Made by a program: the position numbers and the translations under genes
Shown here: piece after piece, positions 17,130 through 54,316 of the stretch
How positions within the stretch are numbered: position 1 is the stretch's first letter
How the letters are laid out: every line of letters begins with the position of its first letter
Origin: Shewanella sp. MTB7
Lineage (GTDB): Bacteria; Pseudomonadota; Gammaproteobacteria; Enterobacterales; Shewanellaceae
Length of the DNA: 64,000 nucleotides
Direction: 5' to 3'
Assembly (NCBI RefSeq): GCF_027571385.1
Contig: NZ_CP085636.1
Location: 2,790,001-2,854,000, forward strand
Notes under the pieces: generated by a model
What the model was told of the DNA's origin: nothing
The model's database searches: none
The model's input: only the letters and a program-made list of their open reading frames with translations

Positions 17130-17163
17130 TTTATCGCGTTCTATTTTGTGCCTAATTTTATTC

Positions 17164-17188
17164 AAAAGGCTGAGCTGTAAGCCTTTTA
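17164..17188. terminator. Hairpin downstream of uvrC
   Basis: AAAAGGCT and AGCCTTTT form an eight-pair stem over an eight-base loop, about 35 bases after the uvrC stop. The T residues lie in the stem, so termination may be partial. Confidence 0.5.
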
Positions 17189-17210
17189 TCAAAATGTGCT
17201 GTTTTATTCC

Positions 17211-17251
17211 GTACCATAGTACTTCACGATTTTTGTACCAAACTGTGTACA
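17211..17251. promoter_or_regulatory. Palindromes upstream of the integrase
   Basis: GTACCATAGTAC (17211-17222) and TGTAC-N8-GTACA (17234-17251) lie 30-70 bases before the integrase ATG. They may be integrase arm sites, an operator, or part of attL. Confidence 0.4.
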
Positions 17252-17281
17252 GAATTTTAGCTTTTAGATAGAGAAGGTCTT

Positions 17282-18547: not shown

Positions 18548-18921
18548 GGCTAATGGGGGTCAATGATGATCCGCCTTTGTCGCTTATGTTTCGATTTTAG
18601 TGCCCATTATGAGTTACACAGCTGTCAGATTTTTATGGAGTGCTATTAATTTTTGTCTAAATATCCCTAAAATTATGCTTAATCAGTGCACGGCATTCAG
18701 GAGATACGAGGCAAGTTTGTTCAACCTGCAAATATGACAGTGCGGTTTTACAAGTAATAATTTAAAGGGGTTATAAATTAATTGCTTATCGATATACGTG
18801 CTTATAAGTTTAATCAGATAATCGCCCAAGACGTATATACAAATATTAGCTATAAAATGTATTCTTGTCATTTGGCTTATATAATAATTTCAATATATTA
18901 AATATGGTAGTAGGGATTTAG
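18548..18921. other. Intergenic stretch after the integrase
   Basis: I see no supportable gene in these 374 bases. CCCATTA/TAATGGG makes a hairpin across the integrase stop, and the rest is AT-rich. A 26-base segment at 18832-18857 (starting CGTATATACAAAT) is 23/26 identical to 24345-24370, where the first integron cassette begins. Confidence 0.5.
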
Positions 18922-20106
18922 ATGGCGAGTATAGAAAGTGCTTTATTAACGGAGTCTTGTGCGTTGTGTAATATCCCTTGGGGTGTGTCAAGACATAGTC
19001 CTGAACACATAATTCCAGAGTCTATTGGCGGAAGAAAAACGGTGACAGGATTTATATGTGAGTCTTGCAATAATGACAGTGGTGGAACTTGGGATAAGGA
19101 ATTGAGTTCACAGCTAAAAAGCTTTTCTGCATTGCTTGGTGTGAAGCGTCAAAAGGGGAAAAAGCCATTTTTTGACTTTCAGACAAGGGCTGGGGAATCT
19201 ATTAGATTCGAAGTTGATGGGACGTTAAGTTTTACTGGTAAGTCAACAGTAACAGATACTATAGATCCGTCCAAAGGGACTGGAAATGTTTCTGTGAGGG
19301 CTAGAACACACGGGCAAGCTGATAAAATAATGGAAGGTCTCAAAAATAAGTATTTAAAAATGGGAGCTAAAACGGTTACTTTTAGTAAACGAGAATCTAC
19401 TCAGTATTTTCAGCAACAAGTACCCATACAAACATCCTTTGGTGGGGATTTTGCCGGAAAATCGTTAGTGAAATCAGTGTGGGCTCTTGCCGCACTGAGT
19501 GAGATTGAGCCTTCATCTTGCGAGAAAGCATATGATTACTTGGTAAATGGCGGTGAGACATGTTTTGGGTATTTTTACAGTAGAGATCTTTTAAGTTCTA
19601 GGCCAGCAGATATTATCCACTGCGTCGCTATAAAAGGAGTTCCCTCGAAAGGATTGTTGTTGGGGTATGTGGAATATTTTTCAGTTTTACGGGTGGTTGT
19701 GTGTTTGTCGGAAAATTATTCTGGTACTGAATTTATAAATACATATTCCATAAACCCCACAACAGCTGAAGTCCTTGAGCTTGATGTGGATTTAAATTTT
19801 GGTGCTCATGAAATAAAAGATATCTATGATCATAAATATTTTGATAATGATGAACTGAAAAATTGTCTAGCCCGCCTTTCTCTGCTGTCATGTCAGAGAT
19901 CTATAAAGCTAAATTTGCAAAAGTATCTTGAGCAAGTAACTAAAGACGTTTGTATAGAATATGGATTTGACGAAGAGCAAGACCTTACTGATGAAGAATA
20001 TATGATGTTTTGTAATCGCATTATAGAATTAATCATTCCCTTTTATGAGCGGGAGTTAGGCCTCCAAAGGAAGTCTGCCATGGAGAATAATGATATTATA
20101 GAATAA
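18922..20106 (+). CDS. HNH endonuclease-like protein
   Basis: A 394-residue protein with an HNH-type zinc nuclease motif near the N-terminus: CALC (residues 13-16), EHIIPESIGG (the catalytic His region) and CESCNNDSGG. The rest, rich in charged and hydrophobic segments, matches no family I can name. HNH proteins of this layout occur in mobile elements and defence loci, and a DNA target is inferred only from the motif. No operon partner is evident: 374 bases precede it and 373 follow it. Codon use is AT-rich compared with the core genes, which suggests transfer. Confidence 0.65.
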   Translation: MASIESALLTESCALCNIPWGVSRHSPEHIIPESIGGRKTVTGFICESCNNDSGGTWDKELSSQLKSFSALLGVKRQKGKKPFFDFQTRAGESIRFEVDGTLSFTGKSTVTDTIDPSKGTGNVSVRARTHGQADKIMEGLKNKYLKMGAKTVTFSKRESTQYFQQQVPIQTSFGGDFAGKSLVKSVWALAALSEIEPSSCEKAYDYLVNGGETCFGYFYSRDLLSSRPADIIHCVAIKGVPSKGLLLGYVEYFSVLRVVVCLSENYSGTEFINTYSINPTTAEVLELDVDLNFGAHEIKDIYDHKYFDNDELKNCLARLSLLSCQRSIKLNLQKYLEQVTKDVCIEYGFDEEQDLTDEEYMMFCNRIIELIIPFYERELGLQRKSAMENNDIIE

Positions 20107-20462
20107 GAGATCGTTTCCGTTTGTGGGCCAAAGTTGACAATACAATCGACAGCGACCTATTTTGCTCGGCTCATTAATGTCTAATTGTTAGTCAACAGAA
20201 CATTTCTGCAACTGTACTCACATATAACTCAATCCGAGTGATTCTTTTTCTGAAGTTTACATTGAAAGAACCTTCTACCTTCATTTGCTCTAAGCGTATT
20301 GAAAAGCTTCAAGGAAATGCTAAGAGTCGTTGTGAATCCACTGAATATTTAAACCTGCTCGCTGTTTGTTCGACTAGACGGTTAAACACCCAATTCACTG
20401 TTTTTATTTGATTTATAATCTATATACATATAAATATTCGCAGGAAATCAACTGTTGATATA

Positions 20463-20482
20463 TACTGTATATAAAAACAGTG
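20463..20482 (+). promoter_or_regulatory. LexA-binding site (SOS box) of umuDC
   Basis: TACTGTATATAAAAACAGTG contains CTGT-N8-ACAG with an AT-rich centre, a near-consensus LexA site. It ends 12 bases before the umuD ATG, so LexA would block transcription start. The 370 bases upstream, after the HNH gene, hold no supportable gene. Confidence 0.85.
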
Positions 20483-20494
20483 CTTGGTTGGATT

Positions 20495-20902
20495 ATGCGT
20501 GTAATACTATATAAAGCAAGTGCGGGGATCACCGGCTTCGAAAGCCCTGCTACAGATTACAGTCAACTTCCATTAAGTCTTGACGAGCTTCTTATTGAGC
20601 ATCCTAGCGCGACATTTATCGGTCAAGCGCAGGGCGACTCAATGCAAGGAGTGGGGATTTTTGACGGTGATATTCTTATTGTTGATCGTCATGTTGTGAT
20701 TAGAAATAACGATGTAGTTGTGGCCAATTACAATGGTGAGTTTGTCTGTAAAATCATTGATACCCGCTCGCGTCAGCTATTGTCTTCAAACGAGTTGCAC
20801 CAGCCTATTCCCATCCATGAATATGATACTTTCTCTATAGAGGAAGTGGTGACACGTTCTATTCGTTGTCATCGTCCTAGCTCGCTATTAAGTTGTGAAT
20901 GA
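20495..20902 (+). CDS. umuD: DNA polymerase V subunit UmuD (autoproteolytic)
   Basis: UmuD is cleaved on RecA filaments to UmuD', which joins UmuC for lesion bypass. The S24 peptidase core is complete: Ser49 in QAQGDSMQGVG and Lys86 in NGEFVCKII. The N-terminal arm is short: only 13 residues precede the Gly in ITGFESPATDY, where E. coli UmuD has the Cys-Gly cleavage bond, so the bond here would be Thr-Gly. An upstream GTG at 20480 lies in the SOS box and is not a credible start. umuC follows after one base. Confidence 0.93.
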   Translation: MRVILYKASAGITGFESPATDYSQLPLSLDELLIEHPSATFIGQAQGDSMQGVGIFDGDILIVDRHVVIRNNDVVVANYNGEFVCKIIDTRSRQLLSSNELHQPIPIHEYDTFSIEEVVTRSIRCHRPSSLLSCE

Positions 20903-20903
20903 T

Positions 20904-22160
20904 ATGTTTGCCCTAGTCGATGCCAACTCCTTTTACTGCAGTGCCGAACAAGTCTTTCGCCCTGATTGGCGTGGTAAGCCTATTATTGTTTTATCGAACA
21001 ACGATGGTTGTGTGGTAGCGGCAAACCGCCAAGCAAAAGAGGCTGGCGTTCCTCGATTTTCGCCGTATTTTCAGATTAAGGTTTTATGTCAACAAAAGAG
21101 CGTCATTGCACTTTCTTCAAACTATGAACTTTACGGTGACTTGTCCGCTAAGATGATGCAGGTCATTGGCCGTTTTGCACCTGAGCAGCATGTTTACTCG
21201 ATAGATGAATCCTTTCTTTCTTTTGCGCATTGTTATCCTGCAATTCCTTGCTTGCATTCACAGGCTCAAGCTATACGTCGCGCTGTTTGGAAAGAGGTGA
21301 GATTACCCGTGTGTGTGGGAATCGGTGAAACACTGACGCTAGCCAAAGTAGCTAATCATGCCGCTAAGAAAATTCAAGGCTATGACGGTGTCTGCGTTAT
21401 CGATAGTGAAGCTAAGCGAATTGAAATTTTACAGCAGTTAGAAACCGCTGACGTGTGGGGGATAGGTCGTCGTTTAAGTAAAAAGCTCACATTAATGAAT
21501 ATCAGGACTGCTTTTGATTTGGCTAAAATGCCGCCTGGTTTAGCGCGTAAGCAATTCAGTATTGAAGTTGAGCGGACTGTAAGGGAGCTAAACGGGCAAA
21601 TTTGCAAACAATGGGATGAGGCTAGGGCAGATAAAAAGCAGATATTCTCAACGCGAAGTGTCGGTGAGCGGATAACTGACTTTGAACAACTGCATCAAGC
21701 CCTTTCTAAACACGCCGCTATTGCTGCTACAAAAGCACGCAAACAAGGCTCAAGCTGTAAGAGTATGCTGGTGTTTGCATCTAATTCACCTTATGACGAA
21801 AGGCCACTGAGCTATAAAACAACAATTCACTTCCCTTGCCCAACAGATGATACAACAGAGATAACCGCGGCAGTTTCTAATGTTGTGAGTCAGCTTTATC
21901 GCCCTGGCGTTCGTTACTATCGAATTGGTGTGGGCTTGATTGATTTAACCAGTACTCATCATGCCCAGTTAGATCTATTTAATGCATCAAAATCTAACCC
22001 CGCACTTATGCGTGTTTATGATGGTATTAATCAACGTTTCGGTACCGATACGCTATTTTTAGCGGCTCAAGGAACAGAGCAAAAGTGGACCATGAGAAGG
22101 GATCTACTGACTCCTCAGTACACCACCAATTGGAATAGCCTCCCACAGATTAAGTGCTGA
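20904..22160 (+). CDS. umuC: DNA polymerase V catalytic subunit UmuC
   Basis: UmuC is the Y-family polymerase of Pol V and copies past damaged bases with low fidelity. The 418 residues show the palm motifs FALVDANSFYCSAE and SIDESFL (catalytic acids), VLSNNDGCVVAANR in the fingers, the helix-hairpin-helix region (VWGIGRRLSKKL) and a C-terminal little-finger domain. I use ATG 20904 because it gives the MFALVDAN start and follows the umuD stop by one base; GTG 20895 would overlap umuD. The last 52 codons are repeated in a fragment at 22838-22996. Confidence 0.95.
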   Translation: MFALVDANSFYCSAEQVFRPDWRGKPIIVLSNNDGCVVAANRQAKEAGVPRFSPYFQIKVLCQQKSVIALSSNYELYGDLSAKMMQVIGRFAPEQHVYSIDESFLSFAHCYPAIPCLHSQAQAIRRAVWKEVRLPVCVGIGETLTLAKVANHAAKKIQGYDGVCVIDSEAKRIEILQQLETADVWGIGRRLSKKLTLMNIRTAFDLAKMPPGLARKQFSIEVERTVRELNGQICKQWDEARADKKQIFSTRSVGERITDFEQLHQALSKHAAIAATKARKQGSSCKSMLVFASNSPYDERPLSYKTTIHFPCPTDDTTEITAAVSNVVSQLYRPGVRYYRIGVGLIDLTSTHHAQLDLFNASKSNPALMRVYDGINQRFGTDTLFLAAQGTEQKWTMRRDLLTPQYTTNWNSLPQIKC

Positions 22161-22406
22161 GTATTGTATTGGCTAAACTTGTTTTCACTCTAAATGCCTT
22201 AAAGTTATTTAGGGTGGAATATTATTTCTATTCAATTGCTTATGTGGTGACAGCGGTTTGTTTTTCACATAATATATATTTTCAATAATGAGCTGGAAAT
22301 AGTGGATAGTATTACTTATTCATAACATATCAAGCTATAGGTAGTACTGAATTTGTAAGGCACAAACTACAGAGAAAGTGACCCCGTTTAATCAAGGATA
22401 TTGATC

Positions 22407-22688
22407 ATGAAACTAAGTTTTGAAGAAATTGAATTATTACAAAAAGCTTTACTTTCACACCGTCGGAAAGTTGAAGAAAAAGATGGTCAAAGTAATCCAG
22501 AGTTTTTGGCATCGGCTCAATTAATGGATAAATTGTCTGTTAACCATGATGGTGCAGAGATTAAATTCTTTCCTAAAAGTAATGATAGGGTAATTGATAG
22601 CGAGAAGAATGATATTGATAGTGCAATAACATTAAAGCATTTTCCTAATGAAGATAATGCAAGGTTGGTCAAGGCTCTATTAGGATAG
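22407..22688 (+). CDS. Hypothetical protein, 93 residues
   Basis: I do not recognise this protein. It is short and charged, with a helical N-terminus (KLSFEEIELLQKALLSHRRKVEEKD) and no membrane segment or metal motif. The start at ATG 22407 follows AAGGAT at a workable distance; TTG 22401 is also in frame. A strong hairpin follows at 22749. It stands alone between umuC and the umuC fragment, so it lies in DNA apparently inserted with or beside a second umuC copy. Confidence 0.55.
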   Translation: MKLSFEEIELLQKALLSHRRKVEEKDGQSNPEFLASAQLMDKLSVNHDGAEIKFFPKSNDRVIDSEKNDIDSAITLKHFPNEDNARLVKALLG

Positions 22689-22748
22689 GGGCATTATAGA
22701 TACAACTTAAAGTGAGCTGTTTAGACTTGATTATGTAACTTAATCAAA

Positions 22749-22778
22749 ATCCAGAAGGTAATCTTTTACCTTCTGGAT
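22749..22778. terminator. Hairpin terminator
   Basis: ATCCAGAAGGTAA and TTACCTTCTGGAT form a 13-pair stem over a four-base loop, about 60 bases after the hypothetical gene. The T run after it is weak. Confidence 0.65.
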
Positions 22779-22837
22779 CTTTAGATACTCTGTTTTATGC
22801 AGCTTAACTAACGGGTGTTGTAGAGCGGGATGACTCT

Positions 22838-22996
22838 GCGCTTATGAATGTCTATGATGATATTAATCAACGTTTCGGTACTGATACACTATTTTTAGCG
22901 GCTCAAGGGACGGAGCAGAAATGGACCATGCGGCGTGATCTACTCACGCCACAATACACAATCAAGTGGGGATGTGTGCCGCAGATCAAGTGCTGA
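22838..22996 (+). pseudogene. Fragment of a second umuC (last ~52 codons)
   Basis: This frame reads ALMNVYDDINQRFGTDTL... to PQIKC and stop. It matches the end of the intact umuC (ALMRVYDGINQRFGTDTL... PQIKC) at most positions but differs in the last line (IKWGCV for TNWNSL) and at many third codon positions. No start or upstream umuC sequence precedes it. It is the tail of a diverged umuC allele left by insertion or recombination, not a recent tandem duplication. Confidence 0.85.
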
Positions 22997-23144
22997 AAAA
23001 CTTGGGAGGTAAATCATTTCTTCCCCAAAGTGAGTTTGGAACGATAGACATCTAATTTTACCAACCCTAAGTTTGACTCAGTTTATCTAATCCATATAGA
23101 GTGCTTGTATCGATTAAAAACTACCTGATGGACGAGTAGAAGAA

Positions 23145-23864
23145 GTGAATACATATACACATCATCATATTGAACGCTTTTATAAAAAATTTATAAGTAG
23201 AACTTTTGATCAAGATGATGTCGCTATGTTTATAGTATTAGCTAGAGATTACACACCTAAAGGAAGTATCTTTCGCGAGTTTGGTGATTTTTTAGCACAC
23301 CCTGATGAAAAAAATCGTGGTCTTGTGATCAAATCGTTTCAAGAGGTCATTAATTTTTTTGATGAAAATACACTAGAAACTTTTGCGGGAGCAGAACTGC
23401 CAAAAAAAATAAGCTTAGGCATCGGCGCACTTGATGAAGTGATGACTAGTTTATGCGCTATCTTTGCACTGGTTGGAATTGAGCATGAAGTAGAGTCTAG
23501 AAACGAACTACGTTTCCGTGATTTTGTTTTTTGTCTGATATTTTTACTTGGGAACTGTCGTTTGAAGATGAATGGTCAACTAGTAAAGATTCAGGTTAAG
23601 TACGGCAACGGTCTTTCTCTTTCCATTTCATATGAAAGTGCAAGTTATCAAAGGCATTATCTTTCCTTTAACTTAATGTTGTTATGCGGTGTGTGGCCTC
23701 AGAGTATGTCTACCGAGAAGAAACTGAGTGGGTATATTGTTAGGAGATTTTCAAATGGATGTTTGGGAGCTATTCCATACGAGTTAGATGAGCCTTGTTT
23801 TGATAAGGACATGCAATCGTTTGAGAGAGGGGTTATTTGGCCTTTAAATGATTATAGATTTTAG
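23145..23864 (+). CDS. Hypothetical protein, 239 residues
   Basis: Unknown function. The start is GTG 23145 after a purine-rich AGTAGAAGAA. The N-terminal part contains DFLAHPDEKNRGLVIKSF, a pattern I have seen in uncharacterised proteins that may belong to a HEPN-like helical group. That is a weak impression and no RxxxxH motif is present. A hydrophobic stretch (FRDFVFCLIFLLGNCRL, about residues 124-140) looks like a buried helix rather than a membrane anchor. No partner gene is adjacent, and 521 bases without a gene follow. Confidence 0.6.
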   Translation: MNTYTHHHIERFYKKFISRTFDQDDVAMFIVLARDYTPKGSIFREFGDFLAHPDEKNRGLVIKSFQEVINFFDENTLETFAGAELPKKISLGIGALDEVMTSLCAIFALVGIEHEVESRNELRFRDFVFCLIFLLGNCRLKMNGQLVKIQVKYGNGLSLSISYESASYQRHYLSFNLMLLCGVWPQSMSTEKKLSGYIVRRFSNGCLGAIPYELDEPCFDKDMQSFERGVIWPLNDYRF

Positions 23865-24358
23865 CTTGATTCGTTAATACATAATCCACCACTGGACACG
23901 ACTACACATTCCTAGTCTAAGTTTCTTTTGCCCCTTTATGCGTTACCTCCAGTAATTTGTCCTATGCAGCACTAACCTCTTTGCAATACGTTTCCTCATC
24001 AGTCTGAAAGGTAAGGATTTCGTCTAGCGACAACCTCTAAGTTCATCAGTGTTTGCACTTTTATACAGTATTATTGGTTTTGTGCGGTTAACCTCCAAAT
24101 TATGTGCAATCAGTTCACGGTTAGCTATTGAGTGAAAATAAAAATAGATGTAAATTCAGCAAGATGAAAGTGTGCGACCTTGAATCGCTGAGATAACAGG
24201 AAAGCAAAGCGTGCGACTAAGTTTTGCCCCAGTGTATATTGGATGCAATTTAGCTGTGCATGTCTCAATACTTTGTATTAATGAGGTTTATAGTGTTGAT
24301 GCCCGTGCACGCTTTCCCGAGAGGACTTGGCAAAACACGCAAGTCGTATATACAAATG
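23865..24358. other. Noncoding stretch before the cassette array (possible attI-like side)
   Basis: No supportable gene; an open frame at 24211-24408 lacks a ribosome binding site and family features. The last bases (GTATATACAAATG) directly precede the first cassette boundary G/TTATGT. The stretch has no attC structure, so the first cassette sits either at an attI-like site whose integrase gene is gone, or at a secondary G/TT site. Confidence 0.45.
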
Positions 24359-24385
24359 TTATGTATAAAACCAACAATGTAGTTA

Positions 24386-25066
24386 ATGGTACTTTTTATG
24401 TCACCTGAAGTAATGCACTGTTTGAAAAATGAGATGAAAGTTATATGGAGTCATTTTGAGAATAAATACTTAAGCTTCTCACCGGCTCAACAAGCTGTCA
24501 TATGTGCTGAGATTGAAAAAATGCTGGAAGCATCAAAATTAATAAAAGCTGGAAATTTACTAGCTCAAAAGTTTAATGATTTTTACTTTGAAAATGGTGA
24601 TGTTTTATTAAATGAGTTCTTACAGTCTTTGTTTGATTGCTTTAAGCAATGGCAAAATCATGATGGGATAGAACTTCAAAAAAGTATTTATGCGCATACA
24701 AATCGAGGCACTGATAACTGGTTCCCAGTCGTATTGATCGATCGAAAAATCAGTGAGTGCAAACTCGAAGGTGACGATATAACGCTGTATCGAGGCTGTG
24801 ACGAAAGCGAATTTGAAACACAAGAATTCAAAAAAAGACAATCCTGGACTAGTGATTTCTCTATAGCCAAAACCTTTGCTTTTCATCATCCATCAAGCAG
24901 AGCATTAATTGAAAAAAGAGTTGTGGTAGAAGCTGTAGTAAATAGAAATGATATTCTTTGGGACAGAGGAATTGAATCAGAAATGGTTCTTAAAGAAGGT
25001 TTTTCGCCAACATCGTCAACTGTTGCAATGACCTATGATGATTACAAAGCCCAGAGAACAGCATAG
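24386..25066 (+). CDS. ADP-ribosyltransferase-like protein (R-S-E motif), cassette 1
   Basis: The C-terminal half shows the three signatures of the arginine-type ADP-ribosyltransferase fold in order: Arg136 in ITLYRGCDE, Ser153-Trp-Thr-Ser in SWTSDFSIAKTFAF, and Glu197-Ser-Glu199 in GIESEMVLKEG. The first half (about residues 1-125) is helical and unassigned. Such proteins attach ADP-ribose from NAD+ to protein, RNA or DNA targets, as toxins, phage effectors or defence enzymes. The target here is unknown. The start may be ATG 24386 or 24398; neither has a ribosome binding site, as is common in cassettes. No immunity gene is evident inside the cassette. Confidence 0.65.
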   Translation: MVLFMSPEVMHCLKNEMKVIWSHFENKYLSFSPAQQAVICAEIEKMLEASKLIKAGNLLAQKFNDFYFENGDVLLNEFLQSLFDCFKQWQNHDGIELQKSIYAHTNRGTDNWFPVVLIDRKISECKLEGDDITLYRGCDESEFETQEFKKRQSWTSDFSIAKTFAFHHPSSRALIEKRVVVEAVVNRNDILWDRGIESEMVLKEGFSPTSSTVAMTYDDYKAQRTA

Positions 25067-25085
25067 CTAGCTCGGTGCAATTTAT

Positions 25086-25141
25086 ACATAACAAGTGCGT
25101 CAAATGGGACGCCTTCGGCGCCCCTTACGCAGGCGTTATGT
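25086..25141 (+). repeat. attC site of cassette 1 (short, 56 bp)
   Basis: R'' ACATAAC at 25086 and R' GTTATGT at 25135 are perfect complements. Inside, TGCGT/ACGCA and GGGACGCC/GGCGCCCC form the stem expected of a folded attC. Confidence 0.88.
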
Positions 25142-25184
25142 GTTTGGCGAGTATTGGATCTAGGTTTGGAGTTAAGAAATAATA

Positions 25185-25799
25185 ATGACTAAAAAAGAAA
25201 CTCGTTTGAAGCGAAAGAAAATGGCTCGTGCGCATCTAAGAAGCAAGCGAGCAAAATTAGAGAGACTAAAGGCTAGATTGATTCCACGAGTAAGACACAT
25301 TGATGGTTTTACTAAAGAAACATTTGAAAGTTATTATTCGCGTTGGCATAAATCTCTAAAAAATATACCCGTATGTGTGGTTGAACAATGGGCTTATGAG
25401 CACAATGATGAATTTATAGAACATTGGTCAAAGTTATTACCTCGGAAGTGGAAGTTTCATTTGAAAGGTTTAACTACAGAGCAAGTTATGAGTATTCAAA
25501 TGCTTGAGTGTAATCGTAAAAATTATGAAGCCGCAGGTATACTTTGTATTGATCAAAAATATGCTCAAACTACGCTTTCAAACTATATGTTTGATGAGTA
25601 TACCTTTCCTAGACCGCTCATCGTTTTTGCAAAGAATGAAGCTTTAACTCATCCAAGAAGCTACGGGGAAGTTGTTTTTGACCAAGAGTTTAACCTTGCA
25701 GAGGGGCACACTCGTTTAGGATTGTTTAGAGCTATGCATTCAAGAAACTCGTATTTCATTGAAAAACATGATGTATGGAACATTGAAACAAACACATAA
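25185..25799 (+). CDS. ParB/sulfiredoxin-like-fold protein, cassette 2
   Basis: A 204-residue protein. The first 30 residues are very basic (KKETRLKRKKMARAHLRSKRAK), suggesting nucleic-acid contact. The C-terminal part has FNLAEGHTRLGLFRAMHSR, close to the VEGHHRL-type box of ParB-like nuclease/sulfiredoxin domains, preceded by the PLIVFAKN strand where that fold has its ligand-binding strand. No helix-turn-helix of a true partition ParB is visible, so plasmid partition is unlikely. The fold binds nucleotides or cleaves DNA in various families; the activity here is not known. The gene fills one cassette and ends six bases inside its attC. Confidence 0.6.
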   Translation: MTKKETRLKRKKMARAHLRSKRAKLERLKARLIPRVRHIDGFTKETFESYYSRWHKSLKNIPVCVVEQWAYEHNDEFIEHWSKLLPRKWKFHLKGLTTEQVMSIQMLECNRKNYEAAGILCIDQKYAQTTLSNYMFDEYTFPRPLIVFAKNEALTHPRSYGEVVFDQEFNLAEGHTRLGLFRAMHSRNSYFIEKHDVWNIETNT

Positions 25800-25920
25800 C
25801 AATCGCCTCAACCTGACTGCCAACCTATGGCATTTTTGGTTCGGTTTGGCTTGGCTTGTGTGATTATGGTGGTCTGTTTGAGTGTGGTGCAGTTGGCAGC
25901 AAGTTAAGCGGGCGTTAAGT
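25794..25920 (+). repeat. attC site of cassette 2 (long, 127 bp, Vibrio-like)
   Basis: R'' ACATAAC at 25794 and R' GTTAAGT at 25914. Internal CAACCTGACTGCCAAC and GTTGGCAGC arms pair, and GCCT / AGCGGGC lie near the ends. Length and layout resemble the repeats of Vibrio superintegrons. Confidence 0.88.
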
Positions 25921-25924
25921 GCTT

Positions 25925-26284
25925 ATGATGGAATCGCGCAAAACTCTAGTTACAAAGCTAGTTGAGTATATAGCTCCAATTGATGACATTCTGGAAGAGC
26001 TCAAGTCATATGGCTGGGATTCAGAAATAGACTTGGTGACTTTAAAGCCATCCCACCTGGTAAATGTACTGGAACGCTTTATCTCCGATGATTTAAGTGA
26101 TGTTCATGTCAGAGACTGGACTAATGGAATCGAGCATCGAGAGGATATTGGACTTCTTAGTGAGTACAAGGATACATTGGATGAAATGATATTTTGGTTA
26201 GCCAATTCAGCTATTAATTATCCAATAACAAAAGACTTAGCTAAACGTGTTATTAAGAGTATACAGTCAAATAATGTGCAGTAA
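25925..26284 (+). CDS. Hypothetical protein, ~119 residues, cassette 3
   Basis: Not recognised. An acidic, mostly helical small protein with a LSDVHVRDWTNGIEHREDIGL segment and no signal peptide, metal site or membrane helix. The gene starts a few bases after the attC core (ATG 25925 or 25928; GTG 25919 would overlap the recombination site) and fills a 418-base cassette. Small single-gene cassettes of this size often encode immunity, antitoxin or phage-defence factors, but nothing in the sequence shows which applies here. Confidence 0.6.
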   Translation: MMESRKTLVTKLVEYIAPIDDILEELKSYGWDSEIDLVTLKPSHLVNVLERFISDDLSDVHVRDWTNGIEHREDIGLLSEYKDTLDEMIFWLANSAINYPITKDLAKRVIKSIQSNNVQ

Positions 26285-26286
26285 GC

Positions 26287-26338
26287 ACTTAACAAGCGCC
26301 TGCAATCTGATCTCCGGCAGTTAAGGCGGGCGTTAGCT
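26287..26338 (+). repeat. attC site of cassette 3 (short, 52 bp)
   Basis: R'' ACTTAAC at 26287 complements the cassette start GTTAAGT. R' is GTTAGCT at 26332. The inner arms GCGCCTGC and GGCGGGCG pair imperfectly, with bulges as expected. Confidence 0.85.
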
Positions 26339-26416
26339 GACTATCGAGCTTAAGCACATTTAATTCTGTATATATATGATACTGTTGGGTGTTTCATAAC
26401 ATAAGAAAGGTTTAAC

Positions 26417-27268
26417 ATGACAACAGTAGTATCGATGATAAACATGAAAGGTGGTGTAGGTAAAACTACATTAACTTTTAACCTAGCATGGCATTGTGCG
26501 TGGAAGAAAAACCTAAAAGTTCTTGCTATCGACCTTGACCCCCAATCTAACCTTAGTCAATATTTTATGGGGGCGGAAAAGTATGTACAGCATCTAGATG
26601 ATGAAAATAGAACAGTAGTAGACATTTTTGAGCAATTCTCAGCGCCCACTCGAACAAGCGGGGCGCCAACCTCTCTAGTACCTGAAGATGTAATTGTTAA
26701 CTTGCATCGGTGGACAGATGGAAGCTTAATTGACTTAATTCCATGTCGTTTAGAATTAGCGTGGACCTTGAAAAACCCAACAGATAAATCACATCTCCTA
26801 CCAAGATTTATATCAACGATCGCGGATGATTATGATCTTATTTTGATTGATTGTGCTCCAACGGAGTCTATTCTAACTACCGCCGCGTATCGTTCAAGCA
26901 GGTATGTCTTTGTACCAGTTAAGCCAGAGTTTTTAGCTACAATCGGTTTACCCCTTCTTGTGCGCTCGATTGATGAATTCAAAATGCTACACCATGACCA
27001 ACAGCTGGATATGGGTGGTATAATATTTAACGGGTTAAGAAGAACAGGTACACCTCCAGAGCAACAACAATCAATGCGTAATGTTAGAAAGCTAGCGAAT
27101 GAATATGGGTGGTCGGTTTTTGATAGCTCAGCTCATCATTCAGACTCTTATCCAGCAGGTTCGAGGGACAGTAAGCCTATCTTTCAAACAAGTTATGCTC
27201 GAGATTATGTTGTCTCTGAGTTCGCTGAAGTTGCAACAGAGTTTTTAGAGGCAATTGGCTATGAATAA
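26417..27268 (+). CDS. ParA/MinD-type ATPase, cassette 4
   Basis: A 283-residue P-loop ATPase of the ParA class with a deviant Walker A at residues 11-18 (KGGVGKTT), the DLDPQSNLSQY motif, and a Walker B-like segment LILIDCAPTES. There is no N-terminal DNA-binding extension. AAGG stands upstream of the ATG. It shares the cassette with the next gene, overlapping it slightly, so the pair forms one unit. ParA-type ATPases position DNA or protein cargo, but no centromere-like repeats or ParB are seen beside it. A role other than plasmid partition is likely in an integron cassette. Confidence 0.82.
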   Translation: MTTVVSMINMKGGVGKTTLTFNLAWHCAWKKNLKVLAIDLDPQSNLSQYFMGAEKYVQHLDDENRTVVDIFEQFSAPTRTSGAPTSLVPEDVIVNLHRWTDGSLIDLIPCRLELAWTLKNPTDKSHLLPRFISTIADDYDLILIDCAPTESILTTAAYRSSRYVFVPVKPEFLATIGLPLLVRSIDEFKMLHHDQQLDMGGIIFNGLRRTGTPPEQQQSMRNVRKLANEYGWSVFDSSAHHSDSYPAGSRDSKPIFQTSYARDYVVSEFAEVATEFLEAIGYE

Positions 27269-27758
27269 AAAGGAACGTCAAGCACTATTGAAGATTCTCT
27301 TGGTTCGAGAAGAACTCACTGATAAAGAATTCAATAACGTGATTGAGTTTATTAGAGCTGAGTTGAGTGATGGGCAAGATACTGAAAAAACAATCAAGAA
27401 ACAATTTTCATCTAAAAAGAAAAGCTGGGACTCTATCACGACATTAATATTGTCACTAAAAGATACGGAAAATGAAAAGTATCAGATTATCAATGGGTTG
27501 CATAAGTTAATGCAAGATGGAAGTATCCTAAAAACAGTATCAGAGGCTCGGAAATTTGGTAACGTATTAGGTCTAAAAGATACTAGCAGCCAAAGCAAGT
27601 CGGATATTATTTATAATATTATTGAAGCGCTGGTAGGAATGGAAAGTAGAACTGTAGCACAGATGGTCTCCAAGATGGAGACGACAACAGATAAACACGA
27701 TGAGTCATATCACCGTTTATCCGAATTCATTATCGAATCAGGTAAAGGTGCGTCGTAA
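27261..27758 (+). CDS. Partner of the ParA-like ATPase, cassette 4
   Basis: A 165-residue helical, charged protein of unknown family that starts inside the last codons of the ParA-like gene (ATG 27261; TTG 27255 also in frame), so translation is coupled. It is rich in Lys, Glu and Ser (KKERQALLKILLVREELTDKEF start) and has no clear helix-turn-helix. Its place suggests an adaptor or cargo partner of the ATPase; that is inference. The stop lies four bases before the attC. Confidence 0.65.
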   Translation: MNKKERQALLKILLVREELTDKEFNNVIEFIRAELSDGQDTEKTIKKQFSSKKKSWDSITTLILSLKDTENEKYQIINGLHKLMQDGSILKTVSEARKFGNVLGLKDTSSQSKSDIIYNIIEALVGMESRTVAQMVSKMETTTDKHDESYHRLSEFIIESGKGAS

Positions 27759-27762
27759 GTTC

Positions 27763-27889
27763 AGCTGACAAGCATTTAAGGGGGACTCTCAACGCTTGGT
27801 ATTTTTCATTCCATCGTTGGGTTTCGTGTTTATGGCGCATTGGCTTAGTTTCGTGGTAGCGTTGCTCACACATTAACGCGGCGCTACCG
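27763..27889 (+). repeat. attC site of cassette 4 (127 bp, Vibrio-like, degenerate right end)
   Basis: R'' AGCTGAC at 27763 matches the cassette start (GTTAGCT) with one change. The body (ACTCTCAACGCTTGG ... AGCGTTGCTCACAC) is very like Vibrio superintegron attC repeats. The expected right core GTTA reads GCTA at 27883, so the last recombination point may be weak or dead. Confidence 0.8.
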
Positions 27890-28047
27890 TACATCCGATT
27901 ACTATACTTTTGCTAATACAAATACTAATATGAATTTGCAGAGCTTTAGCACTACGCATTTTTGTCGCCAAATAGCTTAGAACTAGCATTCTAAGACATT
28001 TTCAAAAAAGCGTAGTAAGTAAGAGGGGATTTCGATATCCTCTTATT

Positions 28048-28785
28048 CTAACAACCCAATCTTTTCAAAATCTGACTGCCATCTTTCAATTTGCTTGGTA
28101 GCGAATAGGGCACAACCTGCCTCAAATCTGAAATCGATTTCTTCGTTGTACAGTAATCAGTACTGCGAGTTAAAGATTGGCTCATTAAAAATGCGGCTGA
28201 ATTACCTTTATGGTCATATACGATTTTGTAGTAATCGGATGGAATAGAGTGGACCTCATCCGCTTTAGGCAATCCGTCCATTTGCTTGTTGTACAGAGTG
28301 CCAGTAATGACATAAAGGTTTTCTCGAAAGCCTACGGCATCTCTAACCGCTTCTTCTAAATTCTTCCAAGGCCCTTGGTTTAAACCCTTTGCCTGAGGTG
28401 TGATGTTGGATAAATAATTCAACGTTGACCAGTATCTACTTCCTACAAAGCTAGCTAAAGGAGCCTGATGGCCTCGGTCAACACCTAGCTTGTTTGATGC
28501 GTCAGTGTAGTCACCTTTTTCTAACCGCTCATCCTCTTCGAGTAGCGGATTATTTTTCCAGGTGCGATTGGTTGTATTGCCAAAATTCATCACATCCACT
28601 TCATAAGCGACCCAATCAGCGAACTGAGTTTTTTGGCTTTGAGAAAGTGCATACAAACGCTCAAATATTACGACATTGCCTTTAATCTCAAGGCTTGGGC
28701 AACCGATAGGGCAGTTCGGGGTGCGAAACTCAGTAGCTTGTAGAGGTACTGAGAACAGGAAAGCTAGCGTTATCCATTTCTTCAT
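28048..28785 (-). CDS. Secreted DNA/RNA non-specific endonuclease (NucA type)
   Basis: A 245-residue nuclease of the beta-beta-alpha metal family. A signal peptide (MKKWITLAFLFSVPLQA) indicates export. The active-site DRGH lies at residues 103-106 (VDRGHQAPLASF), the usual Asp-Arg-Gly-His box, and a conserved N is found in the LNYLSNITPQ segment that binds the metal. Cysteines near both ends (CPIGC and the final C) may form disulfides. It would degrade extracellular or periplasmic nucleic acid. The gene stands alone, facing the cassette array, with its promoter in the 256-base gap before the KAP gene. Confidence 0.88.
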   Translation of the reverse strand: MKKWITLAFLFSVPLQATEFRTPNCPIGCPSLEIKGNVVIFERLYALSQSQKTQFADWVAYEVDVMNFGNTTNRTWKNNPLLEEDERLEKGDYTDASNKLGVDRGHQAPLASFVGSRYWSTLNYLSNITPQAKGLNQGPWKNLEEAVRDAVGFRENLYVITGTLYNKQMDGLPKADEVHSIPSDYYKIVYDHKGNSAAFLMSQSLTRSTDYCTTKKSISDLRQVVPYSLPSKLKDGSQILKRLGC

Positions 28786-29041
28786 TTTAAGGTCCTTTTA
28801 TTAATGTATAGAGCAAGCTAACACAAACTTTGAGTCGCTTGTATTTTGTTAGAAAAATCAGCTGATTTTTCTCGAATTGGGTTTGATTATAGTTTTATAT
28901 GTGTTTCTTGTTTTAGGTGGGCATTTTTTCTTGAATTTTGAAAATTATTCTTTAAAAATAATGCTTTACTAAAATATGTATAAATGTGAAAATCAAGTAA
29001 TACATAAAAATCAATGCTTTAAAAAACAAAAGTAGGATTTC

Positions 29042-31684
29042 ATGTTCAAACGTTGGTTCGATTTACTTTGTCTATCTGTGGTTGCAGCAACTGCACTATA
29101 TTTTCTCCATCCATTAATTCAAAGTAAAACCTTTTTAGCCTGGACTGATTTTATAACGAAGCAACCATATTTAGTGCAGGCGGCTTTGTACTTTAGTTCT
29201 GGATTATTAATTAAGCAGTTGCTAAATGTAACTGGTGACTACAGCATAGAGCAAGAAAGTCCACTTTATGCTCTAAAACGTCTCAAATATCCTCCAGCCC
29301 GTTATGCCATCTTCTTGGTTGTAATCCATATAATGCTATACCTTCAATTCAGTGATTTATTGGCTTTTACGATGGTATTAACTTTTTCTTCTGAAATGAT
29401 CTTATTGTTAATATTCATTTTACTAGGGATAGTTTGGTGTGGTGGGTTTACTATCCCTTTAAGATGGGTTTATGCGAAATTTAGATCAAATACCGTAGCT
29501 GAGAAACCAGTGGGTACAGTATGCGTTAATCGGATGAGTGATTGGCTTAATACAGATGATTCTAGTCAAAATTTGGATGATGACTTATTAAATAGAAAGG
29601 CATTGGTCGAAAGAATTACTGAAAGGCTAAATAAATCAGGTGGTTGTCATCGTGGTAATCATATGCTTGCTGGTGTGTTTGGTAGTGGTAAATCTAGTGT
29701 TATTCACTTTGTTAAAGATCAACTTAGAAAGGAAAATAAAGAGGAATGGCTATTTTGCACATTTGATAGCTGGGGTCGTATCAAAGATGGTTTACATGGA
29801 CAGAAACTAATTCTTGAAATGATGATTAATGAGATTGGTAGAGTAACAAGTGTTGTAGGGCTACAGGGTCTGCCTGATGCATACCTTGGTGCACTTAGTG
29901 GTCTAGGATCAAATTGGAAACGAGTTGTTTCATTTTTAAAGATAACAAACCTTAATCCAGATAAACAGTTGCAAGAAATCGAGTTTATCCTGAATTGTCT
30001 AGATCTTAAAATGTTAGTTTGTATCGAGGATTTAGATCGTAATAATGACAGTAAAAACCTGGCTAACGAGATTGCTCCTCTATTGGACAGATTAGTTAAA
30101 ATAAAGAATGTAAGCTTTATATTCACAATAGGCTATGAAGAACATTTATCTCCAGTTGTTACGAGAGTAACTCAATATCGAGAAGATTTAGTAATTGATG
30201 GGTTGAAATTAGAAAGTATTCTAACGGATTTTCGGAAGGAGTGCTTTGTTATTATTGACGATTTTAATCCATTGAGTTATATAGATGGAACTAAGAATCC
30301 TGATAGTTGGAAGTTTGTTGAACAGTATGTATCAAGTGCAGACTACGCTTCTACAAATAGAATTTACTTTAACTTTCTTGTCTTATACTTTTCAAGTATA
30401 AGAAGTTTAAAATATATTTTAAGAGATGTCATATACTCATGGGAACATTCAAAACTTGCCGGAGAAGTCAATTTTGATGATTTGCTGTTGATGACGATTT
30501 TGAAGTTTGAAGAGCCTTTAGCTTATGATTTTATTGTTGAAAATAAAAATATCGTCGGAAAAGGGCTCGGTTTATACAATGATAAAATGCTATTGGAACA
30601 GTGGTCTTTAATAGAGGGTGAGTTGAATAACTTAGACTCTGCAAAAGCTATTGTAGGATATATTATTAATTTAAAGTATATGGATAAGTCGGCTAAAATT
30701 GGTGGGTTGAATGATAAATCTGGGTTAATGCAGTGTATCGGGGCTAATCGCGATAAGAAATACCTTAATAGTATAATTGCGAATAGTATAGAATTTGGTG
30801 AGAAAGGAAATTTATCAGACTTTAAAATTGTCAGCTTTATAAAGTATCTATTAGATAATATGCAGGGCTTAAATTTTGATGACGCTATGGGGATATCTTT
30901 GGATAAATATTCACATTTGATTAATCATCCAGACTTCTATAATACGATTAAGCATTTATGTGGAATTATTGATGATAACGTTAAAGATTACTGTATTATA
31001 TTTTCTAGGTTAGCACTTTATGAGCTTGATGTAATTGTACAGTGTCACGCTGGGGGGGGGGATGATAAGAATAAAATAGTAGATGGAAATCAGGTTTTTT
31101 TTAAGTACAGCAACTTGTTAAATCAAGTATTTGAAAGAGTTAAAGGTAAGGTGGAAGGGGACGTTATGTTGATTGATTTATTACAGAAAATAACATCCAA
31201 ACATGTTGATAAATCCTTATGTGATAATTGGTGGGTTACATATCTTGTGACGTCTAACTATAACGTAACACAATATTCAAAAAACCTATTGGAGTGTTTG
31301 TTAAAGCGTGTGCCTTCATTAGATTGTTTACAGTTAGATAATTTAAAGAACATGTTTTATTCTGTTAGGAACGTATGTGGTAGTGATCCCAATACTGCTG
31401 ATTTATTTATTCTGGATTGTATAATAAAATCGAAATTTTCTAATTGTTGTAAGGTTGATCTATTATATTGGGCAGTAAGCGGGCTGGTAGGAAGTAAAAC
31501 TTTTAATTGTTACATCGACAACAAAAAACCTGAGTTTATGTCCATTGTAAATTCTGTAAGTGAAGACGAGTTAATAGGAAAGGATATAAAGTTATTTATA
31601 ATGAAAATTAAAGATAAGTATAATAAAGATAAGCTATTAAAATTTTCTGCGGAAGATAACGATGCCAATTTAGTTACATCTTAA
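29042..31684 (+). CDS. KAP-family membrane P-loop NTPase
   Basis: An 880-residue protein with a hydrophobic N-terminal region (about residues 8-150) containing three to four membrane segments, then a KAP NTPase domain: Walker A GVFGSGKSS at 211-219 and Walker B LVCIEDLDRNN with Asp330. KAP NTPases include PifA, which excludes phage T7, and several defence proteins, so a role in phage exclusion is plausible but inferred. The C-terminal 500 residues are unassigned and AT-rich. AGGATTTC stands just before the ATG. The stop codon lies at the edge of a truncated phage methyltransferase gene on the opposite strand. Confidence 0.8.
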   Translation: MFKRWFDLLCLSVVAATALYFLHPLIQSKTFLAWTDFITKQPYLVQAALYFSSGLLIKQLLNVTGDYSIEQESPLYALKRLKYPPARYAIFLVVIHIMLYLQFSDLLAFTMVLTFSSEMILLLIFILLGIVWCGGFTIPLRWVYAKFRSNTVAEKPVGTVCVNRMSDWLNTDDSSQNLDDDLLNRKALVERITERLNKSGGCHRGNHMLAGVFGSGKSSVIHFVKDQLRKENKEEWLFCTFDSWGRIKDGLHGQKLILEMMINEIGRVTSVVGLQGLPDAYLGALSGLGSNWKRVVSFLKITNLNPDKQLQEIEFILNCLDLKMLVCIEDLDRNNDSKNLANEIAPLLDRLVKIKNVSFIFTIGYEEHLSPVVTRVTQYREDLVIDGLKLESILTDFRKECFVIIDDFNPLSYIDGTKNPDSWKFVEQYVSSADYASTNRIYFNFLVLYFSSIRSLKYILRDVIYSWEHSKLAGEVNFDDLLLMTILKFEEPLAYDFIVENKNIVGKGLGLYNDKMLLEQWSLIEGELNNLDSAKAIVGYIINLKYMDKSAKIGGLNDKSGLMQCIGANRDKKYLNSIIANSIEFGEKGNLSDFKIVSFIKYLLDNMQGLNFDDAMGISLDKYSHLINHPDFYNTIKHLCGIIDDNVKDYCIIFSRLALYELDVIVQCHAGGGDDKNKIVDGNQVFFKYSNLLNQVFERVKGKVEGDVMLIDLLQKITSKHVDKSLCDNWWVTYLVTSNYNVTQYSKNLLECLLKRVPSLDCLQLDNLKNMFYSVRNVCGSDPNTADLFILDCIIKSKFSNCCKVDLLYWAVSGLVGSKTFNCYIDNKKPEFMSIVNSVSEDELIGKDIKLFIMKIKDKYNKDKLLKFSAEDNDANLVTS

Positions 31685-32741: not shown

Positions 32742-33674
32742 TCAGGCCACTTCACCTGTTTCGGTATCTACAGGAGCAAACTCACGCTGACGTTTTTTAA
32801 AGTCGGCACCTAAGCTTTTGCGCTCCTCAGGGGTAATGAGACTGGCTTTAAATTTCTTTGCGACTTCAAAGCCGACTTCGTTGAGTTCATCAAGATTGCT
32901 CACTGATAGAATTGCCAATACCAGTTCATCAAATACACGATTGTTCTTCTCAACTGGATCTATGACGTCACCGCTTAGGACTTGGTCTAACTTGGATTTA
33001 TGGCCGTTGCTGTTTGCTTGCGGGTTAAGTTCACGCTCTTTAATAGGGGAGACTTGCAGTTCATCACTTGAGTACACACCCAAAATCACGGCTGGTGCGT
33101 AAAGGCGAGCCCAGTATTTTACGGCTAAATATGCGGCCTGTTGTTTTGGGGCCGTCATCCATAAAGGGGAATTCTTAGTGGTCACATTGGCAGGGAATAG
33201 GGGCTCTCCCCATTGGATCTCTGTTTCGCCAGCAAGTATGGCCCCCACTTGAACCCAGCTGTCTGGCGTGATCTTGGTGCCTTTGTTAACATTGACGCCT
33301 GCAGTATTACTCGATACGACGCCTACATTGTCACCGTCAACTTGCCAACCGCCACCATATTGATAGTGGAAACGTCCATTTATGGCTTTGCTTGAAGAAA
33401 TCACAGCATTAACTAATTGTGCTTCGTAACCTAAGACACCGTTAACCAAATGGGTTTTCTGTGCGACGGCGTAAGGGTTCATTTTCCACTGCGCGGCTTG
33501 CATCACGATTGCCATACAATCGGCGGGAGATCCTTGAAGATGTTTAGGGACGGTCACTTTTCCTTCACTCATAAGGTGGGCTAAGTTGCTCATCTGCTGC
33601 ATAGCTTCAATGTTCAACACCATGTCGGTAGTGCTGGCGATGCTAGGGCGATCTATTGCTATTTGATTATCCAT
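32742..33674 (-). CDS. recT: RecT-family single-strand annealing protein
   Basis: A 310-residue recombinase that coats single-stranded DNA and anneals it to complements. It matches the RecT family in DCMAIVMQAAQWKMNPYAVAQKTHLVNGVLGYEAQLVNAVI, the core strand-exchange region. The C-terminus is charged and ends ETGEVA. It starts at the last base of the exonuclease gene (TAATG) and works with it: the nuclease makes 3' tails that RecT coats. In the phage it serves concatemer formation. Confidence 0.93.
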   Translation of the reverse strand: MDNQIAIDRPSIASTTDMVLNIEAMQQMSNLAHLMSEGKVTVPKHLQGSPADCMAIVMQAAQWKMNPYAVAQKTHLVNGVLGYEAQLVNAVISSSKAINGRFHYQYGGGWQVDGDNVGVVSSNTAGVNVNKGTKITPDSWVQVGAILAGETEIQWGEPLFPANVTTKNSPLWMTAPKQQAAYLAVKYWARLYAPAVILGVYSSDELQVSPIKERELNPQANSNGHKSKLDQVLSGDVIDPVEKNNRVFDELVLAILSVSNLDELNEVGFEVAKKFKASLITPEERKSLGADFKKRQREFAPVDTETGEVA

Positions 33675-34900
33675 TATGCTGCGTGCTCCATGTTGTTTTC
33701 AGCTTCAAGCTGTTCGAGTTCATCTAATTCCCAGTTATTGAGTGAAACCATAACGGCTTCGTTGGTGTATGCAGGCCAGATGTTTGATTCCATGCATTGG
33801 GCTAGTTCGCGCATGGCTTTACGATATTTGAGATAGCCGAGGCGTTTTGTTTTAACGTTAAACACAACGGGTGCAGTGATAACAAAGGGTCGGCTTGACT
33901 CAATAACGAAAAAGACAAATTCATTGGCACCACTCACATCGGTATAGAGGGCGTCTTGAATGTGGTAACCAAGCTTCTTGGCTTTAGCACCAAAGAAACG
34001 TGGATCTGCACTGGCGTCACTTTTGAGATCAACAATCAGATCGTCAATTTGATAATCGGGACGGCATTTGATTATCAAGCCCGTTTTATCGCGTTTAAAG
34101 ATGCTGCGTTCAGCAACACCCCCAGTTGATAGGGCTTTAGCGGTAGGGTTGGATTTAAGCGATTGACGTAAGATGGGCATATCGTCCCATTGATCTTGAG
34201 TCAGTACTATTTGCCCAGCTTCATCTGCATCTGCTTTAACTGCTTTCCAGTCGTTACCAGCACGGCGCTTAATGCTGTCTGGTTGACGAACGTAGCTGCT
34301 ATCGAATAACCAAGGTTCAAGGACAACGGTATGTATTGCTTTCCCCATATCGAAGTATGATTTTTCGCTTTGTGGGATAAGCCCATCGATATACTTGGCT
34401 TTGTACTTTTGTGGACATTCGATGAATAGCTTTAGTTTGCTGCAGCTGACACCAATAACGGCGTGATAAGTGGTGTCGGGTAAGTCATCGATGATGAGCT
34501 TTTCACCTAGCTTTAATAGCTCTAAACGGGCATTAAGGCTATCGACTGTCCAGTGACATTGAGTCATAAAACCGGCAAAGGGATCATCTTGTTCAGTCAG
34601 TTGAACGTGAACCTCTTCCTTTATTACAGTTGTTTCGGTATCCGCTGTGTCAGTAACGGTAATGTCTGCATCTTCATCAGTGACTTCAACAAAAGAAGAA
34701 GCGATGTTCTTTTTAAAATGACTTCGGTTGTAATCTTCACTTCTCAAAAACGCTTCTGCAGTGCGTTCGGCCTCGGCCAGTTCGTTAGCATCCACGATAT
34801 ATGACAGCTCGAAGATATTTTTAGGTGCCTTAGCCATGGGTTTGAAAGTGAGTTTAAAGCGTTTGAGAGTGAGCATTGAGCTAGTCATAGTCGACTCCAT
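33674..34900 (-). CDS. RecE-like exonuclease (PD-(D/E)XK)
   Basis: A 408-residue protein whose C-terminal two thirds is a RecE/DUF3799 exonuclease domain. GKAIHTVVLEP, RPDYQIDDLIVDLKSDASADP (the catalytic D...DLK) and YHIQDALYTDV give the expected nuclease core. It would resect double-strand ends 5' to 3' as partner of RecT. The N-terminal 130 residues are acidic and less conserved. Start ATG 34900 overlaps the preceding gene by 20 bases. Confidence 0.9.
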   Translation of the reverse strand: MESTMTSSMLTLKRFKLTFKPMAKAPKNIFELSYIVDANELAEAERTAEAFLRSEDYNRSHFKKNIASSFVEVTDEDADITVTDTADTETTVIKEEVHVQLTEQDDPFAGFMTQCHWTVDSLNARLELLKLGEKLIIDDLPDTTYHAVIGVSCSKLKLFIECPQKYKAKYIDGLIPQSEKSYFDMGKAIHTVVLEPWLFDSSYVRQPDSIKRRAGNDWKAVKADADEAGQIVLTQDQWDDMPILRQSLKSNPTAKALSTGGVAERSIFKRDKTGLIIKCRPDYQIDDLIVDLKSDASADPRFFGAKAKKLGYHIQDALYTDVSGANEFVFFVIESSRPFVITAPVVFNVKTKRLGYLKYRKAMRELAQCMESNIWPAYTNEAVMVSLNNWELDELEQLEAENNMEHAA

Positions 34901-51000: not shown

Positions 51001-51002
51001 CC

Positions 51003-53096: not shown

Positions 53097-53165
53097 TGTT
53101 AACGCGTGATTTCAGCGCTCTCGTTCAGTAATACCTGACTTCTAATAACCCATAACTTGGTAGAT

Positions 53166-53196
53166 AAAAAGCCGCCTCAATCGAGGCGGCTTTTTT
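53166..53196. terminator. Terminator between portal and scaffold genes
   Basis: AAAAAGCCGCCTC and GAGGCGGCTTTTTT pair over a loop of four bases. An unusual break in the middle of a late operon; late transcripts are probably antiterminated. Confidence 0.85.
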
Positions 53197-54307: not shown

Positions 54308-54316
54308 GAATACATT

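Follow-up and report, generated by a model that had tools for sequence, protein, structure and literature searches.

A gene cassette array headed by a putative attI site in a Shewanella prophage, and related orphan attI-like sites across the genus

Introduction

The usual picture of an integron is that of one integrase gene (intI), one attI site and one array of gene cassettes, and in sedentary chromosomal integrons intI and attI are followed by cassettes that all read one way. For Shewanella, the accessible part of one report describes many clusters of attC sites lacking integron integrases (CALINs) and single attC sites lacking integron integrases (SALINs, i.e. single cassettes) away from intI (PMC9229058). 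In the Shewanella prophage M16-3 a CALIN starts with attI, according to the portion of the paper available (Qi et al., 2023, PMC9892861), and delta-attI gene cassettes of mobile integrons are functional according to the available text of a third report (PMC12901181). Here we analyse an array of four gene cassettes in Shewanella sp. MTB7. It lies in a stretch of 64,000 nucleotides, referred to below as the window, which corresponds to positions 2790001–2854000 of the only contig (C1) of this 6.37 Mb genome (G000). We consider it rather likely that this array is a prophage-borne cassette platform, with attI and without intI, which belongs to a set of dispersed orphan attI leaders and could be used by an integron integrase (IntI) in trans.

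Results

The array consists of cassette 1 (24359–25135), cassette 2 (25136–25914), cassette 3 (25915–26332) and cassette 4 (26333–27883), with attC sites at 25086–25141, 25794–25920, 26287–26338 and 27763–27889, respectively. The attC sites and all cassette genes are on the plus strand. An initial annotation, made from the sequence, had proposed attC sites at these four places, one-way genes and cassette starts complementary to the R'' end of their own attC. Thirty-two attC sites were gathered from cassette arrays by self-complementarity, the three from the window (one of them as locus L021) were removed, and the remaining 29, all from other loci, were aligned to give the attC model R1. In its consensus the R''/R' pairs are accompanied by an L''/L' stem that covaries and has a single extruded base, and five of the nine pairs are changed on both sides. 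With filters off, R1 gave 12 matches in the window at E values up to 5, and exactly the four proposed sites ranked first (9e-6, 2e-5, 8e-5 and 0.009), the fifth-ranked match having an E value of 0.22.

Cassettes 1 to 3 each start with 12 nt complementary to their own attC end, and in cassette 4 the complementarity of the R'' box has one mismatch (judged by eye). Reconstituted as circular attC and compared with shuffled sequences, the sites of cassettes 1 to 3 folded better than the shuffles (z = −5.2, −3.1 and −4.2); for cassette 1 the circular attC has an energy of −19.7, and the z value belongs to a one-base-off form with an energy of −16.5. Hence paired R''/R' and L''/L' boxes with an extruded base were recognized behind a gene in all four cases by R1, and three of the four fold well. 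These proposals of the initial annotation were thus borne out. Chance complementarity in the absence of any integron has practically no likelihood left, because it is ruled out by the ranking of R1 in the window; the matches of an independent model, the controls and the attI homology described below speak against it, and nothing beyond the weak fourth attC speaks for it.

Linear attC stretches folded poorly for three of the four sites because R' in the linear array belongs to the next cassette, and circular attC were used instead. A naive scan of the window for R''/R' pairs recovered two of the four attC sites amid many chance pairs, and a search with Rfam at gathering thresholds returned only a tRNA. 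Applied to the whole genome, R1 gave eight matches at E values up to 1 among the best 150 of 2796 candidates scored. Seven of them sit downstream of an attI-like site, and the eighth is found at 5243161 (E 0.19).

The genome contains a broken intI, recognized by TIGR02249 in two pieces (G000:C1:3277571–3278313, L019:11541–12316), 463 kb from the array. It is the sole such gene suggested by a search of the genome, and the attI region beside it is followed by at least one cassette of its own with attC. When window positions 17000–29000 were compared by BLAST with this neighbourhood, positions 24114–24361 aligned over 252 columns (79% identity, E 1e-52) with the stretch that separates the broken intI from its first cassette, and the homology stops where the cassettes begin. 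This similarity points to an array that starts with an attI site including the intI upstream region (24111–24358, plus strand), with cassettes inserted between 24358 and 24359. The initial annotation had overlooked this site. The intI gene itself is absent: as the initial annotation had stated, no intI match was found in the window at an E value of 0.001, and the sole PF00589 match there is the phage-type integrase at 17282–18547. By comparison with a complete integron, the array thus has a putative attI, recognized by homology only, and no intact intI beside it, the only intI being the broken one elsewhere in the genome. Two or more attC sites without a nearby intI would fit a CALIN, the label given initially. 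Since attI and the intI upstream region appear to head the array, we describe it as a predicted integron without intI and not as a strict CALIN; whether the definition requires the lack of an attI platform is a matter of usage. The TTTATACAG element occurs in the intI upstream region of many copies, both orphan and intI-adjacent, and we take it to resemble part of a LexA box.

Secondary genomic sites of cassette insertion (attG) are known, and the cassettes might have entered at an attG-like site, or else homologous recombination with a chromosomal copy might have introduced the array into the prophage. That elements exchange DNA is plausible, since another leader of this genome, at 5451 kb, also lies behind a umuC 3' fragment and about 5 kb from a phage-type integrase gene. 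Nevertheless, the homology of the leader with an attI region next to intI, which extends over about 250 nt, argues against a bare attG, and homologous transfer would account for the arrival of the leader and not for its identity. Altogether, this explanation seems improbable to us.

The region ahead of the cassettes recurs far beyond this locus. With a 302-nt leader probe, and four places scored in each genome, 27 of 152 genomes gave matches. The attI core CGCGCAAGYCGTATATWMAAATGTTR, with up to three mismatches allowed, was used as a pattern for what we call type A sites. Six were found in the MTB7 genome and 84 in 26 of 148 genomes of the family, compared with none for the reversed control pattern. 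Eleven of the 84 lie within 2 kb of an intI match (E 1e-30 or better), eight of them at a distance of 298–333 nt. The other 73, in 24 genomes, have no such neighbour within 2 kb, and draft contig ends may conceal some. One genome (G146) alone has 15 type A sites, of which one has intI within 2 kb and 14 have not. Among named genomes the exact core occurs at 11 loci, ten in Shewanella (including S. hanedai) and one in Enterovibrio. The latter locus (L181, Enterovibrio sp. ZSDZ42) has a type A leader, the leader module A described below at 86% identity, attC behind it and, within its array, a transposase-like open reading frame (ORF; IS30 type by eye). Either the leader crossed to another genus or the contig is mixed.

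A second core, type B, was first seen in the MTB7 genome at attC sites without a good type A core. It corresponds to the Shewanella oneidensis-like attI core quoted in the available part of Qi et al. (2023, PMC9892861). The type B pattern matched 399 sites in 93 of the 148 genomes (reversed control, none), with at least five sites in each of 30 genomes and a maximum of 16; of the 150 type B matches listed, 12 have intI at a distance of no more than 2 kb. The type A and type B patterns coincide at one place or more. This dispersed family of orphan attI sites, which the initial annotation did not mention, is the most telling feature of our data, and the array of the window is one of many such platforms in the genus.

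Most of the orphan sites sampled are followed by cassettes. A complementary end was defined as at least eight contiguous bases complementary to the cassette start within 1.5 kb. Of 48 distinct type A sites, 46 had 900 nt or more of downstream sequence, and a complementary attC-type end was present in 30 of these, compared with 60 of 2022 in a swapped-start control; removal of the eight sites with intI sequence upstream left 24 of 38. For type B, 20 places without intI within 2 kb were picked by hand in five genomes from the matches listed, with no or one mismatch, and 14 had a complementary end (control 8 of 378). At one of them (L254) a distant tyrosine recombinase (28% identity) adjoins the site. 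With E values up to 0.5 allowed, R1 detected 40 attC sites in type A loci. They come from 14 of the 15 loci, and 33 of them belong to the 13 loci that have no intI beside the site. In type B loci, with a limit of 0.05, R1 detected 27 attC sites, spread over 13 of the 20 loci. In these 35 loci all 67 attC sites are on the same strand as the attI site and downstream of it; part of the 40 type A sites, and none of the 27 of type B, had been training sequences of R1. Named loci gave 16 further R1 matches, partly in the same DNA, with the same strand and downstream position (by eye).

The cassette starts behind different leaders are mostly unlike. At L066 and L067 (genome G120) both leaders precede one 331-nt stretch, probably a repeated cassette, which recurs once more in L066. 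An attC-like hairpin, AAC-n-ATAAGGATAGG...CCTTATCCC followed by GTTGAACAAGCCCGA, recurs in L027, L030, L032, L037, L068, L070, L079 and L121, and is sometimes the final attC traceable by chain search.

Upstream of the attI region the leader of the window contains a further segment, module A (23926–24110, plus strand), which takes the place of intI in many orphan attI leaders. When 17 orphan leaders that contain module A were aligned with nine other copies, the intI upstream region and attI proved common to both groups. Where the former have module A (about 190 nt), intI coding sequence, or what is left of it, is present in seven of the nine others, and two have neither. Among the 48 type A sites, intI coding sequence is present in the 1 kb upstream of nine, and BLAST gives some match to module A at 28; one site belongs to both groups, by a short match, and 12 belong to neither. 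The module A matches cover at least 157 of 185 nt at 21 sites including that of the window, 64–76 nt at four and 19–22 nt at three.

TGCCCC, or a sequence close to it, directly precedes the start of the leader in 20 cases picked up by a pattern search and in four type B leaders, and some leaders are without this motif. TGCCCC is also the end of a hairpin-rich, partly tandem intergenic repeat of about 290 nt (L058:6730–7031 and 47 further matches in the MTB7 genome); a 311-nt probe of this repeat gave at least 48 matches in that genome, with the best 40 of 58 candidates scored. A search for the left edge of the leader in inverted orientation, as expected of a transposon end, gave no clear result.

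Could the leader be, instead of attI, a non-coding cassette whose attC is unusually long? Module A has at its left edge the sequence GTTACCTC, which is for the most part complementary to GAGATAAC within the leader (by eye). However, R1 has no match to the leader at E values up to 5, the right end of the leader reads AAATG/TTA and not GGCG/TT, and the same sequence adjoins intI. Moreover, a search to the left of the ten leaders whose left edge was caught revealed no convincing attC accompanied by a matching cassette, two weak pairs being judged as chance. We regard this explanation as very improbable.

The orphan sites might also be fossil integrons, in which intI was lost in place and the leaders were copied by duplication or island transfer, with no use in trans. 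An intI 5' remnant or pieces of intI are kept in L042, L085 and L087, the intI of MTB7 is broken, and some sites are without a matching attC. On the other hand, module A stands in place of intI at 21 of 48 sites, which points to the spread of one leader type; the cassette starts behind different leaders mostly differ; and the 14 sites of G146 without a nearby intI coexist with one that has it. As a general explanation, fossilization appears unlikely to us.

The array is located within a prophage of 60,178 bp. The attL core is the 14-mer ATACATGATTCATT at the 3' end of uvrC (17106–17119, plus strand), and its attR partner lies beyond the window (genome positions 2867284–2867297, L017:13284–13297). 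Both were defined by empty sites in other genomes. uvrC is followed by the integrase gene and, 60 kb beyond, by pgsA (named by eye). The joined uvrC and pgsA flanks were searched for in 127 genomes, and 31 genomes besides G000 and G062 (see below) had both pieces among the matches listed; in 27 of them the flanks are contiguous through ATACATGATTCATT, and in four they are 0.3–8.6 kb apart. A 19-nt repeat, TTGTACCAAACTGTGTACA, had been considered as the att core and was dropped once the empty sites showed the 14-mer. It is present just inside both prophage ends (window 17233–17251 and L017:13192–13210), and its copies are possibly integrase arm sites.

The prophage encodes a tyrosine integrase with an open frame (17282–18547, plus strand; PF00589, phrog_1), RecT and exonuclease VIII-like proteins at the start of the early region (32742–34900, minus strand), and terminase, portal and major head proteins (48350–55528, plus strand; profile searches), in addition to replication and tail functions. 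The initial annotation had placed the array within a prophage, between its integrase and phage genes, and the att-bounded element with its empty sites elsewhere agrees with this: the array lies between attL and attR as prophage cargo. Among annotated phages, Vibrio phage douglas 12A4 (57.6 kb) has the closest portal (52% identity). In the viral_contigs collection 26 portal relatives were found, and no relative of the integrase was detected by the patterns used; relatives of RecT were distant, and the exonuclease had one relative. R1 at an E value of 0.05 found no attC in 27 of 45 viral loci, mostly not cargo ends.

A sister prophage with a 97% identical integrase occupies the same uvrC site in G062, which is S. 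hanedai as judged by the matching position of the attI core. It had been proposed to look for related prophages lacking the array, and this one shows no attC match in the 7.9 kb from the integrase to the contig end. This segment contains other cargo, including a umuC 3' fragment, and a type B attI-like site 352 nt after the integrase. In the prophage of MTB7 a second, degenerate attI-like site (18687–18848, plus strand; crossover G to A) lies 276 nt after the integrase, so that both sister prophages carry an attI-like site beside the integrase. No complementary attC was found after the degenerate site. The HNH endonuclease gene behind it (18922–20106, plus strand; PF14279) may be a former cassette.

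Further cargo comprises umuD and umuC (20480–22160, plus strand; PF00717, PF00817, PF11799) and a fragment of the umuC 3' end (22833–22996, plus strand), which is 80% identical to 21997–22160. Such fragments are also located upstream of variable cargo at L058:6352–6717 and L141:11826–12182, and two of the three precede an attI leader. There are hints here that the umuC 3' end serves as a capture or insertion point.

Cassettes 1 to 3 contain ORFs at 24386–25066, 25185–25799 and 25919–26284, respectively, for which no Pfam, NCBIfam or PADLOC family was found above cut-off. Searches of the PDB identified neither of the first two, with no match at an E value of 1 for cassette 1 and a single match at 0.5 for cassette 2. 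Cassette 4 encodes a ParA-type ATPase (26417–27268; PF13614, E 6e-32) and its small partner in an overlapping ORF (27255–27758). Its long attC ends in GGCG/CTACCG, with a weak R' end that is without the usual GTT. The array DNA had matches in 62 of the 148 family genomes, mostly on this long attC; two candidates were scored per genome, and relatives of cassette bodies may have escaped. The attC type of cassette 4 is common in the Shewanella family, and an origin in Vibrio is not needed.

To the right the array is followed by a gene for a DNA/RNA non-specific endonuclease (28048–28785, minus strand; PF01223) and by cargo encoding a KAP-family P-loop NTPase (29042–31684, plus strand; profile search). 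The latter shows weak similarity to PifA and QatA and is possibly anti-phage cargo.

Discussion

The attC sites of the window are real, the region at their head is homologous to an intI-adjacent attI region, and the array sits in an att-bounded prophage. For a prophage-borne platform served in trans, the following course of events can be envisaged. IntI made elsewhere in the cell would have inserted or exchanged cassettes at the attI of the window. Because the IntI of MTB7 is broken, the array would now be frozen unless a functional IntI enters. If the phage moves, platform and cassettes might reach new hosts, many with a full-scoring intI; in 90 of the 148 genomes intI scores above the family cut-off. 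Service in trans, phage activity and mobility of the leaders are thus steps that we infer. In a wider version, one IntI at one locus would serve up to about 15 attI platforms on chromosome, islands and prophages; the leaders would be mobile, and a phage would bring an empty or loaded docking site and trade cassettes with its host. We offer this version tentatively, as possible but short of an even chance.

Several observations weigh against a platform used in trans. The only intI of MTB7 is in two pieces. The attC of cassette 4 is the weakest of the four: of the structural check suggested initially, the covariance search succeeded for all four sites and the folds for three, whereas the circular attC of cassette 4 did not stand out clearly from shuffled sequences (z = −0.8, 40 of 200 shuffles equally good). 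For type A, 16 of 46 sites yielded no complementary end and 1 of 15 loci no attC match; for type B the corresponding numbers are 6 of 20 sites and 7 of 20 loci. L087, counted as an orphan, has pieces of intI adjoining. Of the 24 genomes that carry orphan type A sites, five have no intI match at 1e-30, so that some orphans may be fossils. Finally, the leader was not found in plasmid or phage collections, nor the exact attI core in viral_contigs. The observations of the initial annotation are confirmed, and its interpretation, an array captured by a prophage that might spread cassettes by a phage route, is partly supported, the phage-borne spread being our inference as well.

Should orphan attI sites prove to be in use in trans, cassettes could be taken up, expressed from separate leaders and moved by phages without being tied to the integrase, and one integrase elsewhere in the cell might serve scattered orphan docking sites. 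It becomes testable whether IntI in nature uses attI sites far from its own gene. A genus-wide family of orphan attI sites was not found in the literature searched, which did not cover subscription papers and preprints.

With sedentary chromosomal integrons the array shares attI and one-way cassettes, but here intI is missing in cis and a chromosome has many attI sites. In delta-attI cassettes, attI likewise occurs away from intI and is usable by IntI1; as far as the available text goes, the attI-derived site there is part of a cassette, whereas here a long attI region leads the array (PMC12901181). Integrase-less cassettes scattered over Shewanella chromosomes are a further likeness. The accessible part of that report makes no mention of attI at the heads of CALINs and SALINs, whereas most orphan attI sites sampled here have cassettes behind them, and use in trans, if true, would help to explain the scattered CALINs and SALINs described there (PMC9229058). 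Prophage M16-3 is the direct precedent for the array of the window: in the portion of the paper available, it too has a CALIN headed by a Shewanella-type attI in a Shewanella prophage (PMC9892861). According to the same portion, M16-3 also has a complete integron with an intact IntI and a premature stop in its phage integrase, whereas the MTB7 prophage has no intI and an open integrase frame; beyond what is described there, the orphan attI is here placed in a genus-wide family (PMC9892861).

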